From positions 1 to 64,000 of the forward strand of contig CACLEU010000002.1 in assembly GCA_902606075.1 (NCBI GenBank): a stretch of 64,000 bases of DNA. The letters run 5' to 3'. The DNA comes from an uncultured Pelagibacteraceae bacterium. GTDB lineage: Bacteria > Pseudomonadota > Alphaproteobacteria > Pelagibacterales > Pelagibacteraceae. Shown here piece after piece: positions 2-6,376 of this stretch; position 1 is the stretch's first letter, and each line of letters starts with the position of its first letter. The notes beneath the pieces are model-generated. The model was not told the DNA's origin. It did no database searches and saw nothing but the letters and a program-made list of their open reading frames with translations. Position numbers and translations under genes: made by a program.

Positions 2-115
2 ATGTATTCTAAAGAAATAATTAATTATAGTAATAATTTGTTAAATAATGACAAATTTATTAATTCAAAAGTTATTGATTTAAGGTTAAAAAATAGAATA
101 ATAAAATATGAGTAA
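2..115 (+). CDS. ftsQ: FtsQ cell-division protein, C-terminal fragment (cut by window edge)
   Basis: An open frame enters at the left edge and ends in TAA at 115, giving about 37 residues ending 'KVIDLRLKNRIIKYE'. FtsQ/DivIB proteins of Gram-negative bacteria usually end with such a 'vDLRl..R' strand, and the next genes (ftsA-like, lpxC) are the usual dcw neighbours. The frame overlaps the next ATG by 8 bases, which suggests translational coupling. FtsQ is a bitopic inner-membrane protein whose periplasmic part links FtsB/FtsL to the divisome. Only the C-terminal beta strand is visible, so the call rests on the motif plus synteny. Confidence 0.7.
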   Translation: MYSKEIINYSNNLLNNDKFINSKVIDLRLKNRIIKYE

Positions 116-818
116 TTCTAGAAATGGAGATTTTTATTTTGGTATATCAAATAGTAAAATATATATATGTTTCTTTGAATATGGAAAAAATAATTTTAAA
201 AATTCAATAGACTTTGAAATTCCAGATACAATCAATAATGATTTAAATTTTAAAATAATTTTGGATCTACTTAAAGACAACATAAGAAAACTTGAGAAAA
301 GTTTAGGTTTCTTTTTAACAACTGGAAATGTATCAATCGATTCAGAAACTTATCAAAGTTTTTTATTTAGCATTAAAAACGTATTTGATGAAAAAAGATT
401 AGACGAAACTGTTATTACTAATTTAGTTCAAGGTGGGATACAATACTTTAATAATTATAATAAAAAATTATCAATAATTCATATTATAATAAATAAATAC
501 ATCGTTGATGGCAAAGAGTATAATCTTTTACCATATGACATAAAGTTCAAAAAGATTATCTTGGAAATAGAATTTATATGTTTAGATAAAAACCTGATAA
601 ATAAAGTGAAAAACTTATTCAGAGAATGCAAAATTAATATAAACAAAATAGTTTCTTTTGAATATTCAAAAAAATTCTTAAATGATGAAGAAGACCCAAA
701 TATGTGTCTATCAGCAAAAAAAGTAATAAATGGTGTTAATAAGTCAGAGTTACAAATACAAGAGAACCCCCAAGCAAAAATGAGTATATTTGATAGAATA
801 TTTAACTTTTTTGACTAG
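108..818 (+). CDS. ftsA: Shortened FtsA-like division protein (SHS2 domain plus C-terminal amphipathic helix)
   Basis: The 236-residue protein is FtsA-like but only a little over half the usual length of roughly 410-420 residues. Residues 9-25 ('FYFGISNSKIYICFFE') fit the first FtsA strand pair. Residues about 115-195 follow the FtsA 1C/SHS2 region: a 'YIVDGKEY..LPYDI' segment, a strand, a helix, then 'ECKININKIVSFEYSKKFLNDEED', which parallels the place where E. coli FtsA returns to domain 1A. There the protein jumps to a short linker and a C-terminal amphipathic helix ('MSIFDRIFNFFD') like the FtsA membrane anchor. The second half of 1A and all of 2A/2B, including the DIGGGT-type phosphate loop, are missing. 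The frame is uninterrupted, so this looks like an internal deletion kept as a gene rather than simple decay. Family assignment is inferred from motif order and from its place between ftsQ and lpxC. Confidence 0.62.
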   Translation: MSNSRNGDFYFGISNSKIYICFFEYGKNNFKNSIDFEIPDTINNDLNFKIILDLLKDNIRKLEKSLGFFLTTGNVSIDSETYQSFLFSIKNVFDEKRLDETVITNLVQGGIQYFNNYNKKLSIIHIIINKYIVDGKEYNLLPYDIKFKKIILEIEFICLDKNLINKVKNLFRECKININKIVSFEYSKKFLNDEEDPNMCLSAKKVINGVNKSELQIQENPQAKMSIFDRIFNFFD

Positions 819-884: not shown

Positions 885-1805
885 ATGTCCGTATTAAATC
901 AAAAAACTATTAAAAATAATTTAAAATTTGAGGGAATAGGACTTCATACTGGAAAAAAAGTTACAATGAACTTATTTCCAGCTCCACCTAACTCTGGGAT
1001 CATCTTTAAAAGATCAGATTTAAAAAATAATAATTTAATTTACCCAAATGTATTTAACGTTTCAAGCGCATCTTACTGCACCAAAATAACTAACGAAAAC
1101 GGAGTGAGCGTTTCAACAGTCGAGCACCTCATGGCGGCACTTTGTGGATTAGGAGTTGATAATCTATTAATTGATCTAAATGAAGAAGAGTTACCAATCA
1201 TGGATGGCTCTGCAAAAAGTTTTGTCGATAGTATTCAAAATGCTGGTTTCAAAATTAGTGATCAACCTATAAGGATTATAAAAATCAATAAAAAAATTAC
1301 TTATTCTGAAGGAGAAAAATATATTAGTTTTGAACCTAATAAAATAAGCTTAGAAATAGATTTTGAGATTAAATATAAACAAAGCTCAATATTAAATCAG
1401 AGAAATATGAAAAATATATATATGGATGATTTAAAAGATATGTACGAGTCAAGAACGTTTTGTTTATTTGAAGATGTAGAAAAATTAAAAAAAATGGGTT
1501 TAGCACGTGGTGGTAGCTTGGACAATGCAATAGTTATTAGACAAAACGAGATACTTAATAAAGAAAAGTTAAGGAACTCCAATGAATTTGTAAATCATAA
1601 AATTTTAGATTGCTTAGGTGATATTTATATTGCTGGATATAAAATGGTTGGAAAAATAACTTCAAGTCAGGGTGGACACAATGTTACAAATTTAGGTTTA
1701 AGAAGTTTATTAGCTAATAACGAGAATTTTTCAATTATTGAAGTCAAAGAAAAAAATATACCACATTCATTTTTAGCAAAAAATCCTTTAAAATCTATAG
1801 CATAA
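885..1805 (+). CDS. lpxC: UDP-3-O-acyl-N-acetylglucosamine deacetylase LpxC
   Basis: LpxC catalyses the committed, zinc-dependent deacetylation step of lipid A synthesis in the cytoplasm. The 306-residue length is normal. The start reads into 'FEGIGLHTGKKVTMNL', a hallmark of the family. Visible zinc-site and catalytic segments are 'VEHLMAALCGLGVDN', 'NHKILDCLGDIYIAG' (His and Asp) and 'SQGGHNVTN' near the C terminus. It sits 66 bases after the ftsA-like gene and 41 bases before bamD. The normal alphaproteobacterial neighbour ftsZ is not in the gap. The 61-residue minus-strand ORF inside it is a shadow. Confidence 0.96.
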   Translation: MSVLNQKTIKNNLKFEGIGLHTGKKVTMNLFPAPPNSGIIFKRSDLKNNNLIYPNVFNVSSASYCTKITNENGVSVSTVEHLMAALCGLGVDNLLIDLNEEELPIMDGSAKSFVDSIQNAGFKISDQPIRIIKINKKITYSEGEKYISFEPNKISLEIDFEIKYKQSSILNQRNMKNIYMDDLKDMYESRTFCLFEDVEKLKKMGLARGGSLDNAIVIRQNEILNKEKLRNSNEFVNHKILDCLGDIYIAGYKMVGKITSSQGGHNVTNLGLRSLLANNENFSIIEVKEKNIPHSFLAKNPLKSIA

Positions 1806-2677: not shown

Positions 2678-4702
2678 ATGAAAGACTCATTATCAAAAGA
2701 ATACCGTAAAAAATTGAGTTTATTGGAAAAATATAATAAGTTTTATTATCAAAATCAAAAACCCTTAGTTTCAGATAAAAAATATGATGAATTAAAAAGT
2801 GAAATTTTAGAACTAGAAAGTAATTATGGTTTCAATGATTTAAAATCACCTAATGTTAAAGTTGGATACAAACCCTCAAAAAAATTTGAGAAATTTAAAC
2901 ACAAAGTTAAAATGTTATCATTATCAAATGCATTTAACGAAGAAGATTTAATAAATTTCCAAAAAAAAAACATTAACTTTTTAGCATTTGATAAGAATTA
3001 TGAATTTGAATATAACGCAGAGCCTAAAATTGATGGTATCTCTGCCTCTCTAAATTATAAAAATGGTAAGTTAATCAAGGGTCTTTCCAGAGGTGATGGT
3101 GATGAGGGTGAAGATATAACTGAAAATTTGAAAACTATTAAAGATATTCCATTGAATATTTCATATAAAGATTTTCCTGACGAAATAGATATTAGAGGTG
3201 AGGTCTTTATAGAAACTAATGATTTTAAAAAAATTGAAAAAGATTTTGCAAATCCGAGAAATGCTGCATCTGGGTCTCTAAGGCAAAAAGATCCTAAAAA
3301 AACGGAACTAATACCTCTAAAATTTATTGCTTACACTTTTGGTTATAATTCAAACATGAAAGAAAGCAAACAAAGTGATTTTATCAAAAATCTAGATAAG
3401 TGGGGTTTTAAAATTTCTGCGTTAAATAAAACAATTAAAGGAATAAATAATTTAGTTAAGTACCATTCTGATATAGAAAAAAAAAGATTTACTCTTAACT
3501 TTGATATTGATGGTATAGTTTACAAAGTCAACGAATTTAACTTGCAAAAAAGATTAGGTTTTATGGCCACTGCTCCTAGATGGGCTATTGCACATAAATT
3601 TTCAGCTAACTATTCTATAACCAAAATTATAGATATCGATATTCAGGTTGGAAGAACAGGAGCTTTAACGCCAGTAGCAAAAGTGAAACCAGTTAACATT
3701 GGTGGTGTAATGGTTTCTAACGCAACTCTACATAATGAAGATGAAATAAATAGAAAGGACGTAAGAATTGGTGACACTGTAAAAATTGAAAGAGCCGGGG
3801 ATGTTATACCTCATGTTATATCTGTAGATAAAAAATTAAGAACAACAAAATCACAAAAATATGTATTTCCAAATAAATGCCCTTCTTGTGGGTCAAAAAC
3901 AATAAAAGAGTATAATTCAACAACAAAAAAAATTGATGCAGTCAGAAGATGTAGTAATGAGGGTTTTGGATGTGAAAAAATTTCAATTGAAAAATTAAAA
4001 CATTTTGTTTCCAAAGATGCCTTAAATATCGAGGGTTTAGGCAAAAAAGTTGTTGAAAAATTTTGGGATTTAAAATTAATAAAATTTCCTGATGATATCT
4101 TTAATTTAAATTTTAAAAAAATTTCAGAGTTAGATGGATGGGGACCCCAATCGGTGGAAAATCTTGAAAAATCTGTAAATAAATCAAAAAAAATAAAGCT
4201 AGATAAATTTATTTATTCTCTTGGTATAAGGCATATAGGACAAGAAAATGCTAAATTGATATCTGAATTCTTAAAAAATTATTCAAACTTTATTAAGTTA
4301 AAAGATGAGCGTAAGATTGAAGAATTATCCAATATAGATGGCATTGGAGAAACACAAATTAATTCCTTAAAAATTTTTTTTAAGAACAAAACTAATCTAA
4401 ATGTGACTATGTCTTTGGGTAGAATTCTAATTTTTGAAAAAAATGTTATTAAAAAAATGGAGGGAGCATTTTCAAATAAAATATTAATGTTTACAGGAAA
4501 ATTAAATAATATTAGCAGAGCTGAAGCTAAATCAATTGTCGAAAATAACGGGGGAAAAATTGTAAGCAATGTGTCAAAAAAACTTGATTATTTAGTTGCT
4601 GGTGAAAAACCCACCTCAAGAAAAGTTAAAATGGCAAATGATTTAAAAGTTAAAATATTAAACCAAATAGACTTTGAAAAAATTTCAAAATTGGGACAAT
4701 AA
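2678..4702 (+). CDS. ligA: NAD-dependent DNA ligase LigA
   Basis: LigA seals nicks in duplex DNA using NAD+. At 674 residues it is full length. Domains in order are: N-terminal Ia region (residues ~1-70), adenylation domain with the active-site lysine in 'EPKIDGIS' and 'SRGDGDEGEDIT', OB fold ('VGRTGALTPVAKVKPV'), a four-cysteine zinc finger ('CPSCGS...CSNEGFGC'), helix-hairpin-helix repeats ('HIGQENAKL', 'IDGIGETQ'), and a C-terminal BRCT domain ('MFTGKLNNISRAEAK'). It starts with no gap after bamD. Its 3' end overlaps the convergent pepP-like gene by 18 bases. Confidence 0.97.
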   Translation: MKDSLSKEYRKKLSLLEKYNKFYYQNQKPLVSDKKYDELKSEILELESNYGFNDLKSPNVKVGYKPSKKFEKFKHKVKMLSLSNAFNEEDLINFQKKNINFLAFDKNYEFEYNAEPKIDGISASLNYKNGKLIKGLSRGDGDEGEDITENLKTIKDIPLNISYKDFPDEIDIRGEVFIETNDFKKIEKDFANPRNAASGSLRQKDPKKTELIPLKFIAYTFGYNSNMKESKQSDFIKNLDKWGFKISALNKTIKGINNLVKYHSDIEKKRFTLNFDIDGIVYKVNEFNLQKRLGFMATAPRWAIAHKFSANYSITKIIDIDIQVGRTGALTPVAKVKPVNIGGVMVSNATLHNEDEINRKDVRIGDTVKIERAGDVIPHVISVDKKLRTTKSQKYVFPNKCPSCGSKTIKEYNSTTKKIDAVRRCSNEGFGCEKISIEKLKHFVSKDALNIEGLGKKVVEKFWDLKLIKFPDDIFNLNFKKISELDGWGPQSVENLEKSVNKSKKIKLDKFIYSLGIRHIGQENAKLISEFLKNYSNFIKLKDERKIEELSNIDGIGETQINSLKIFFKNKTNLNVTMSLGRILIFEKNVIKKMEGAFSNKILMFTGKLNNISRAEAKSIVENNGGKIVSNVSKKLDYLVAGEKPTSRKVKMANDLKVKILNQIDFEKISKLGQ

Positions 4703-6376
4703 CCAAAATTTTTCATTATAATTTAAATATTTCTCTACATTTGAGTAAACTTCTAAATTATACCCAATTAAATAATCTTTTTCTTTTTTATTAAGAAGTT
4801 TAAAATTGATTAATTCTTTATCGAAAGGAACCATTGTTAAATTTTTAAAGCACATTTTATTTTGGAATTTTTTTACATAAATCATATTTTCTATTCTAAT
4901 ACCGAATTTATCTTTCTTATAATAACCAGGTTCATTGCTTATTACGTGGCCTGGTTTAAGTATTATTTTATAACCTTTTGAGATTGCAATAGGTCCTTCG
5001 TGCACATTAAGAAAATAACCTACGCCATGCCCTGTGCCATGGGGATAATCTAATCCATTTTTTTTAAGAAATTTTCGAGCTAGATTATCTATCAAGTGAG
5101 CACTTTTTAATTTGTTTAAATTTGAATTAGCAACAGCAATATGACCCTTTAAAACATACGTAAATATATTTTTAATCTTTTTTGTTTGCTTTCCTAGACT
5201 AATTGTTCTTGTAATATCAGTAGTTCCATATTTATATTGACCACCCGAGTCACATAAAAAAATATCATTTTTTTTTATAATTCTATTAGAACTTTTATTT
5301 GCTCTATAATGTATAATTGCACCATTTGGCCCTGATGCAGCAATTGTATTAAAGCTTGGAAATAAATAATTTTTATTTTTCCTCCTAAAAAAATTTAATT
5401 TTTTTTCAGCATCCAATTCAGAGAGTTTTTTTTTGTAATTCTTAATCCAATACAAAAACTTTATTACCGCTACACCATCTAAAATATGTGTTTTTATAAA
5501 ATTTTTTATTTCAATATCATTTTTTATTGATTTCAAATTATAAATAGGATCATTTTTATCTGATATATAAATTTTATTTTTGAGTATATTTCTGTAAGCT
5601 AAAGAACAACTCAATCGATCTAAAATAATCTTTTTAGATACAAAATCTTTTAAAAAAATATTTATTTTATTTTCATCAATTAACTTTCCTTTTAATAAAT
5701 TCCTTTTTATTGATAAATTTTGTATTTTTGATTTGTTTGCAAACAAATATATTTCACCATTATTTTTTAAAATCATCCTACAGTTAGGAATTGGACTGTG
5801 TGGACTATCTTTACCCCTTAAATTTAATAGCCAGGCAACGTTTTCGGGAGCTGTAATAAAAAGACAGTCTGCTTTGTCTTCACGAAGATATTTCAAAACT
5901 TTATTAATCTTAGATTTTGAACTTTCCCCTGAAATGTGATCTTTTATAAAATAAAATTTATTATTAATTTTTCTTGATTTTTTCTTAATTATCAAATCTT
6001 CGTAAATTGGTACAAGTGTAAAGTAACTTTTAAAATATCTCGTTAAAGTCAAACTTGTAAAGCAATATGGATTATAGCCTATTCTGATTTTATGTTTTAG
6101 TACTTTCCATGGTAGTTTTTTATGAATCTCAACGATATCAAAGTTATTACCAGACTGAGATTTTGCTTGAATTGTATACCTTCCGTCTACAAATAGATAA
6201 TTTTTGTTTCCCAAAATTATTGCTAGACCAGCAGATCCATCAAAATTAGATATAAACTTTAGTCTATCAGGTGAAGAATATTCATTAAAATAGGAGTCGT
6301 TTTTAGGGACAATATAGCCATCTATATTATAAATATTAAATTTAAGTCTCAACTTTTTAATTTTAGTGGAGATCAT
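4685..6376 (-). CDS. pepP: Xaa-Pro aminopeptidase, M24B family (long, XPNPEP1/AMPP-like form)
   Basis: This M24 metallopeptidase removes N-terminal residues preceding proline. At 563 residues it matches the long three-domain form (two creatinase-like N-terminal domains followed by the pita-bread catalytic domain). The five metal ligands are all visible: 'CDSGGQYKYGTTDITRT' (two Asp), 'HGTGHGVGYFLNVHE' (His), 'SNEPGYY' (Glu) and 'GIRIENM' (Glu). It overlaps the upstream uvrD stop in an ATGA arrangement, so the two are probably co-translated. No signal peptide is seen, so it is likely cytoplasmic. The gene symbol is used in the broad family sense. Confidence 0.9.
   Translation of the reverse strand: MISTKIKKLRLKFNIYNIDGYIVPKNDSYFNEYSSPDRLKFISNFDGSAGLAIILGNKNYLFVDGRYTIQAKSQSGNNFDIVEIHKKLPWKVLKHKIRIGYNPYCFTSLTLTRYFKSYFTLVPIYEDLIIKKKSRKINNKFYFIKDHISGESSKSKINKVLKYLREDKADCLFITAPENVAWLLNLRGKDSPHSPIPNCRMILKNNGEIYLFANKSKIQNLSIKRNLLKGKLIDENKINIFLKDFVSKKIILDRLSCSLAYRNILKNKIYISDKNDPIYNLKSIKNDIEIKNFIKTHILDGVAVIKFLYWIKNYKKKLSELDAEKKLNFFRRKNKNYLFPSFNTIAASGPNGAIIHYRANKSSNRIIKKNDIFLCDSGGQYKYGTTDITRTISLGKQTKKIKNIFTYVLKGHIAVANSNLNKLKSAHLIDNLARKFLKKNGLDYPHGTGHGVGYFLNVHEGPIAISKGYKIILKPGHVISNEPGYYKKDKFGIRIENMIYVKKFQNKMCFKNLTMVPFDKELINFKLLNKKEKDYLIGYNLEVYSNVEKYLNYNEKFWLLSQF

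Follow-up and report, generated by a model that had tools for sequence, protein, structure and literature searches.

Gene content and order at the ftsA locus

The window, a stretch of 64,000 nucleotides, covers the first part of contig C2 in the genome (G000) of an uncultured Pelagibacteraceae bacterium, an assembly of 825 kb and 76% completeness. The contig begins inside ftsQ, 107 bases before ftsA, and its first genes are as follows.

2..115, + strand: C-terminal end of ftsQ, matching the FtsQ tails of relatives G032 and G016
108..818, + strand: short ftsA, 236 aa, with ATG start and intact frame; predicted FtsA lobe 1 (1A and 1C) plus membrane tail, without 2A and 2B
885..1805, + strand: lpxC, assigned by PF03331 (E=9.1e-91) and synteny

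Bases 2-115 translate to SKVIDLRLKNRIIKYE (also given as MYSKEIINYSNNLLNNDKFINSKVIDLRLKNRIIKYE), the C-terminus of FtsQ, and the end of ftsQ overlaps the start of ftsA by 8 nt, as in relatives. The frame, the match of the FtsQ tail and the PF03331 hit confirm the initial annotation in placing an intact 236-residue ORF between the ftsQ end and lpxC. A bamD-like gene follows lpxC in the window. The order ddl-ftsQ-ftsA-lpxC is alike in the genus and its sister family, and lpxC is the next gene after ftsA in all relatives with a complete locus; the short ftsA holds the dcw-locus position between ftsQ and lpxC, in an order from which ftsZ has been relocated.

In the dcw cluster of relatives, ftsZ stands second, between mraZ and mraW, and lies ~15 kb upstream of ftsA rather than after it. 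This spacing was read from L041:1325-18164 (G032) and is the same in sister-family loci such as L092. Loss of ftsZ, which is absent from the window genome, was considered and rejected: since the contig begins 107 bases before ftsA and the ftsZ of relatives lies ~15 kb upstream, its lack is probably an assembly gap. Two further features of gene structure were seen. The murE and murF genes of the G032 cluster are apparently fused into one 940-aa ORF, in which the Mur-ligase middle and C-terminal domains each occur twice (L041:10459-13278, minus strand), and a 563-aa ORF of the window (4685-6376, minus strand) overlaps by 18 nt the end of a ligA-like gene on the other strand (2678-4702). The names of these two window genes are my own reading, and the 563-aa ORF presumably resembles an aminopeptidase P-type peptidase.

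Identity and domain anatomy of the short protein

Subdomain 1C (SHS2) is the feature that sets FtsA apart from other actins. The window protein matched the ftsA model TIGR01174 with E=1.5e-5 (aa 56-186 on model positions 54-182 of 371), scoring 24 bits where the family cut-off is 175.85, a value that the full-length FtsA proteins of the genus also fail to reach; a Pfam search of the protein gave no FtsA match. A 20-member profile of short forms found FtsA chains as its best PDB matches. An AlphaFold2 model, for which an alignment of 20 short relatives served as input, reached a pLDDT of 84.5 and a pTM of 0.80, and its best 19 structural matches in the PDB were all solved FtsA (E 6.6e-12 to 5e-9), followed by PilM and then, more weakly, GspL/EpsL. 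The PDB profile matches and the predicted structure both agree with the earlier assignment to FtsA.

A full-length congener, G030 (371 aa), was modelled in the same way and aligned along whole FtsA structures (TM 0.64-0.76). The elements that the two models have in common follow in one order: three 1A strands, a helix and a strand, next 1C, a return to 1A by one strand and one helix, and finally the last helix of 1A with the tail. The parts of the short protein are:

108..347, + strand: N-terminal part of subdomain 1A, aa 1-80, with modelled strands 7-13, 17-24 and 32-37, helix 45-66 and strand 72-77 (AlphaFold2); phosphate-1 loop degenerate
348..629, + strand: subdomain 1C (SHS2), aa 81-174 (model, TIGR01174, PDB profile matches)
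630..680, + strand: 1A return strand 177-183 and helix 184-190, aa 175-191, with invariant Y186 (model, conservation)
681..701, + strand: junction, aa 192-198, site of the missing 2A+2B block (alignments, paired models)
702..728, + strand: last 1A helix, aa 199-207, homologous to the long-form helix ICESGLKL (model, alignments)
729..755, + strand: NGxNxxEV motif, aa 208-216, conserved more highly in short than in long forms
783..815, + strand: amphipathic membrane-targeting helix SIFDRIFNFFD, aa 226-236 (hydrophobic moment, conservation)

Absent from the short form is one contiguous 2A+2B block of ~140 aa, corresponding to about residues 190-328 of the congener, and the phosphate-2 and adenosine motifs are gone with it. 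Most FtsA of the genus exceed the window protein by ~140-150 aa, and those of the sister family by ~160 aa. Alignments and paired models thus bear out the reported absence of 2A/2B with its phosphate loops, and the retention of 1C/SHS2 and of a C-terminal amphipathic helix is upheld by the model, the profile matches and the hydrophobic moment. This moment is 0.68 in the window protein and averages 0.54 in short and long tails alike, against 0.31 in random 11-mers; among short forms, the tail residues F228 and F232 are invariant. The initial annotation was wrong, however, in reporting the second half of 1A as missing: strand 177-183, helix 184-190 and the last helix 199-207 are present and pair one to one with strand 170-176 and helices 177-189 and 331-342 of the congener. 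The whole of lobe 1 is kept, which therefore points to a domain-precise excision of lobe 2 and not to the loss of half of 1A.

The short protein retains 1C, the C-terminal amphipathic helix and orthology to the full-length FtsA of the genus (by synteny and gene tree), and it lacks the two-lobed fold with 2A/2B, the phosphate-1, phosphate-2 and adenosine motifs, and the FtsZ-binding strands of 2B. As modelled, the ORF at 108-818 is an FtsA ortholog reduced to a complete lobe 1 and membrane tail, with lobe 2 excised.

Distribution of short and long forms across SAR11

At least 136 intact short ftsA genes of 220-246 aa were present among the matches listed for 399 sampled congeneric genomes, while ~100 sampled congeners had full-length FtsA with intact nucleotide motifs, and no intact FtsA of in-between length was found in congeners. 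At the locus, lengths in the genus and sister family fall into classes of 220-237 and 368-405 aa (393-401 aa in the sister family), the few others being contig-cut or broken. Long forms such as those of G025, G030 and G054 keep the DxGS, DIGxxxTS and GxGSK motifs. What had been taken for the peculiarity of one streamlined cell is thus a form occurring in at least 136 sampled species of a SAR11 genus.

The window contig has 107 bases ahead of ftsA, and in many single-cell genomes the gene is cut by a contig end, as might be expected if the short form were an artefact of assembly or gene calling in fragmented single-cell genomes. But short ftsA also sits deep inside long contigs, always between ftsQ and lpxC at complete loci, and it occurs in the single-contig genomes G338, G425 and G122, which refutes an artefact and leaves it a negligible probability. 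In these three genomes, each with an intact short gene, a TIGR01174 search found no second FtsA, full-length or otherwise; the remaining matches were proteins of ~345-360 aa and ~650 aa, taken as MreB and DnaK. A separate 2A/2B ORF in the same cell was rejected on the same grounds.

SAR11 contigs often stop inside or just before ftsA (G000, G035, G196, G376, G421, G181 and G382; likewise G201, G213, G366, G299, G350, G308 and G321). An even shorter FtsA of 125-170 aa was considered and rejected, the intact-looking matches under 200 aa that were checked being contig ends. Broken ftsA genes were found in both classes, in G012 and G180 (L270) among short forms and in G010 and G380 among long forms. 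In the single-contig genome G012, the frame of the short gene (L060, ~770-540 nt upstream of lpxC) is broken at a T7/A8 homopolymer, and because the break falls at such a run it may be a sequencing error.

Selection and motif change in the short form

Pairs of short genes gave dN/dS values of 0.10-0.37, compared with mostly 0.12-0.44 for ftsQ and 0.09-0.31 for long ftsA in the same genomes. The short ftsA is under purifying selection. Conservation was then compared between 53 short and 44 long forms. It is equal in the two sets for 1C and the membrane tail, while constraint on the N-terminal, nucleotide-binding part of 1A has loosened in short forms, where identity is 0.22 against 0.32 in long forms, and the D/E and G of phosphate-1, kept in 44/44 long forms, are mostly lost in the 53 short ones. 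The NGxNxxEV segment between the last helix and the tail changed in the opposite direction, its mean identity being 0.46 among short forms and 0.17 among long ones, with E214 and N211 at 0.98 and 0.94 in the short set; NxxEV is already seen in some long forms (G025, G030). The short forms of G267 and G124 have a long-like start and a last helix (NICESGLKL...NKQEVVIVPRK) nearly as in the long G025, and this near-identity fixes the position of the junction.

Decay of ftsA to a pseudogene in a streamlined genome could account for the broken copies in G012, G180, G010 and G380 and for the fast evolution of the 1A N-terminal part. The frame of 220-246 aa is nevertheless intact in at least 136 species, 1C and the tail match the long forms in conservation, NGxNxxEV has become more conserved, and dN/dS resembles that of ftsQ and long ftsA, so that decay is largely refuted and very improbable. 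The gene is conserved in sister genomes, and I hold with high confidence that it encodes a functional FtsA ortholog without lobe 2.

One deletion or several

In the ftsA gene tree (domain 1 and tail), the 53 short forms make up one clade with support of 91/86 (82/71 in a subset), which is sister to one long-form group and nested among long forms at 100/100. Flanking genes, taken up to ~12 kb around ftsA, mix genomes of the two FtsA classes in their trees, and one clade of short-FtsA genomes is rejected on them (lnL difference 361, p 2e-71), and ftsA in turn rejects the groupings of the flank tree (p 1.4e-4 and 0.008). This disagreement between ftsA and its flanks implies either that the allele has been exchanged through recombination or that the loss occurred more than once.

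Simple independent losses, the reading of the first trees, weakened after more sequences were added. Since support for the short clade is moderate, several independent excisions within SAR11, with convergent relaxation, keep some probability; the interleaved flanks speak for them, whereas the single short clade on ftsA itself, its sister relation to one long group, the rejection of the flank-tree groupings and the short-form junctions, which coincide in position and differ by no more than ~1 residue in loop length, speak against them, and I judge them unlikely. The gene tree moderately supports one deletion in SAR11. On this sequence evidence, lobe 2 was probably deleted once, in an ancestor whose FtsA resembled that of G025/G030, after which the short allele may have spread between SAR11 lineages through recombination; a single deletion with recombinational movement of the allele is suggested as the simplest account.

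FtsZ, division partners and a possible mechanism

In the usual view, FtsA is an actin that binds ATP and forms filaments, and its subdomain 2B attaches FtsZ to the membrane. In both E. coli and T. maritima FtsZ binds to 2B, and 1C serves self-interaction and the recruitment of FtsQ and FtsN (PMC4281207); the longitudinal filament contact of FtsA is IIA-IIB, and FtsN binds in the IA-IC cleft (PMC7613929). With 2A/2B missing, the short form therefore lacks the phosphate-2 and adenosine motifs, the strands known to bind FtsZ and the IIA-IIB contact of the filament.

The C-terminal peptide of FtsZ is DLEIPAFLRRQKN, and the end EIPAFLRRQK(N/H) is identical alongside short and long FtsA in the genus, so that a co-change of this peptide with FtsA was rejected. 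Profile searches for SepF, ZipA and MinC found none above chance in 11-15 of these divergent, AT-rich SAR11 genomes, including the single-contig G338, G425, G122 and G012. A SPOR-type FtsN was likewise not detected by profile in SAR11 genomes including the same four, and the sole SPOR protein detected was rejected as FtsN as it looks like an RlpA-type lipoprotein. The short forms lack 2B, the classical reader of the FtsZ tail, yet the tail persists and no known replacement was seen, and FtsZ would thus be held in a way not yet described.

The short FtsA would sit on the inner membrane via its tail helix and, given the lost motifs and lobe, would neither bind ATP nor form the IIA-IIB longitudinal filament. 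Its role may be that of an adaptor, independent of nucleotide and perhaps dimerising through 1C, whose 1A-1C face brings in later division proteins. FtsZ might be held by a new contact on the reduced protein, for example at the NGxNxxEV segment, or by a second tether that reads the unchanged C-terminal peptide. The initial proposal of a minimal FtsA with SHS2/1C and membrane tail but no ATPase lobe stands, and its recruiting role is plausible on this scheme. The explanation as a whole, that is, a genuine FtsA with lobe 2 excised and working as a membrane-bound adaptor, is likely. It is counted against it that E. coli FtsA without 2B loses the FtsZ interaction and the cells filament (PMC4281207), that the searches did not turn up SPOR-type FtsN, the canonical occupant of the 1A-1C cleft, and that short ftsA is broken in G012 and G180.

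Whether the FtsZ tether is the short FtsA itself or another protein is close to an even choice. As sole tether, the reduced FtsA would need a new peptide site on lobe 1, such as NGxNxxEV or the 1A-1C cleft. The unchanged FtsZ peptide, the retained membrane helix, the constraint on NGxNxxEV specifically in short forms and the failure of profiles to find the other known tethers SepF and ZipA fit such a site, while the FtsA-FtsZ contacts in the literature cited are all in 2B, and NGxNxxEV is not a pure replacement, because NxxEV occurs in the long forms of G025 and G030; I hold this reading only tentatively. That the short FtsA no longer links FtsZ to the membrane, and that an undescribed protein reads the FtsZ peptide and anchors the ring, is conceivable but doubtful. 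If true, ring tethering and divisome activation, normally the jobs of one protein, would be split between different proteins, and FtsA would serve the septal machinery as a membrane adaptor that neither carries nucleotide nor polymerises.

Comparison with known systems and significance

Canonical FtsA (T. maritima 1E4F/4A2A, E. coli 7Q6D, V. maritimus 7Q6F/7Q6I and S. aureus 3WQT as reference structures) shares with the short adaptor candidate the ftsQ-adjacent locus, 1A and 1C, the last 1A helix and the amphipathic C-terminal helix, but the short form lacks 2A/2B and has a degenerate phosphate-1 motif. The full-length FtsA of the genus (G025, G030, G054), its nearest relatives in the gene tree, have the same locus and domain-1 and tail sequence and, unlike the short form, keep 2A/2B and the nucleotide motifs. 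PilM of type IV pili (2YCH, 5EOU, 3JC8) has, like short FtsA, an actin-like fold with an FtsA-type 1C, and it binds a short cytoplasmic PilN peptide in its 1A-1C cleft; unlike short FtsA, it has both lobes and binds nucleotide, and its structural match is weaker than that of FtsA. The cytoplasmic domain of GspL/EpsL in type II secretion (1W97, 1YF5, 4PHT) is a modified actin-like scaffold of similar size (~225-240 residues), but it matches much more weakly (TM ~0.35-0.39) and belongs to another pathway with another membrane anchor. The laboratory E. coli FtsA without 2B makes the same split of the FtsZ-binding from the recruiting domain; the deletion is non-functional in E. coli (PMC4281207), whereas the short FtsA is the wild-type state in SAR11. 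Among open-access papers, none on a reduced FtsA in SAR11 was found.

SAR11 is the ocean's most abundant bacterial group. In many of its species, evolution has removed the FtsZ-gripping, ATP-binding half of FtsA and left the FtsZ tail untouched. Long and short alleles occur within one genus, with G267 and G124 as intermediates, and offer a natural comparative series. The finding bears on the need for nucleotide binding and filaments of FtsA in division, on other readers of the FtsZ C-terminal peptide, and on the smallest working divisome scaffold.
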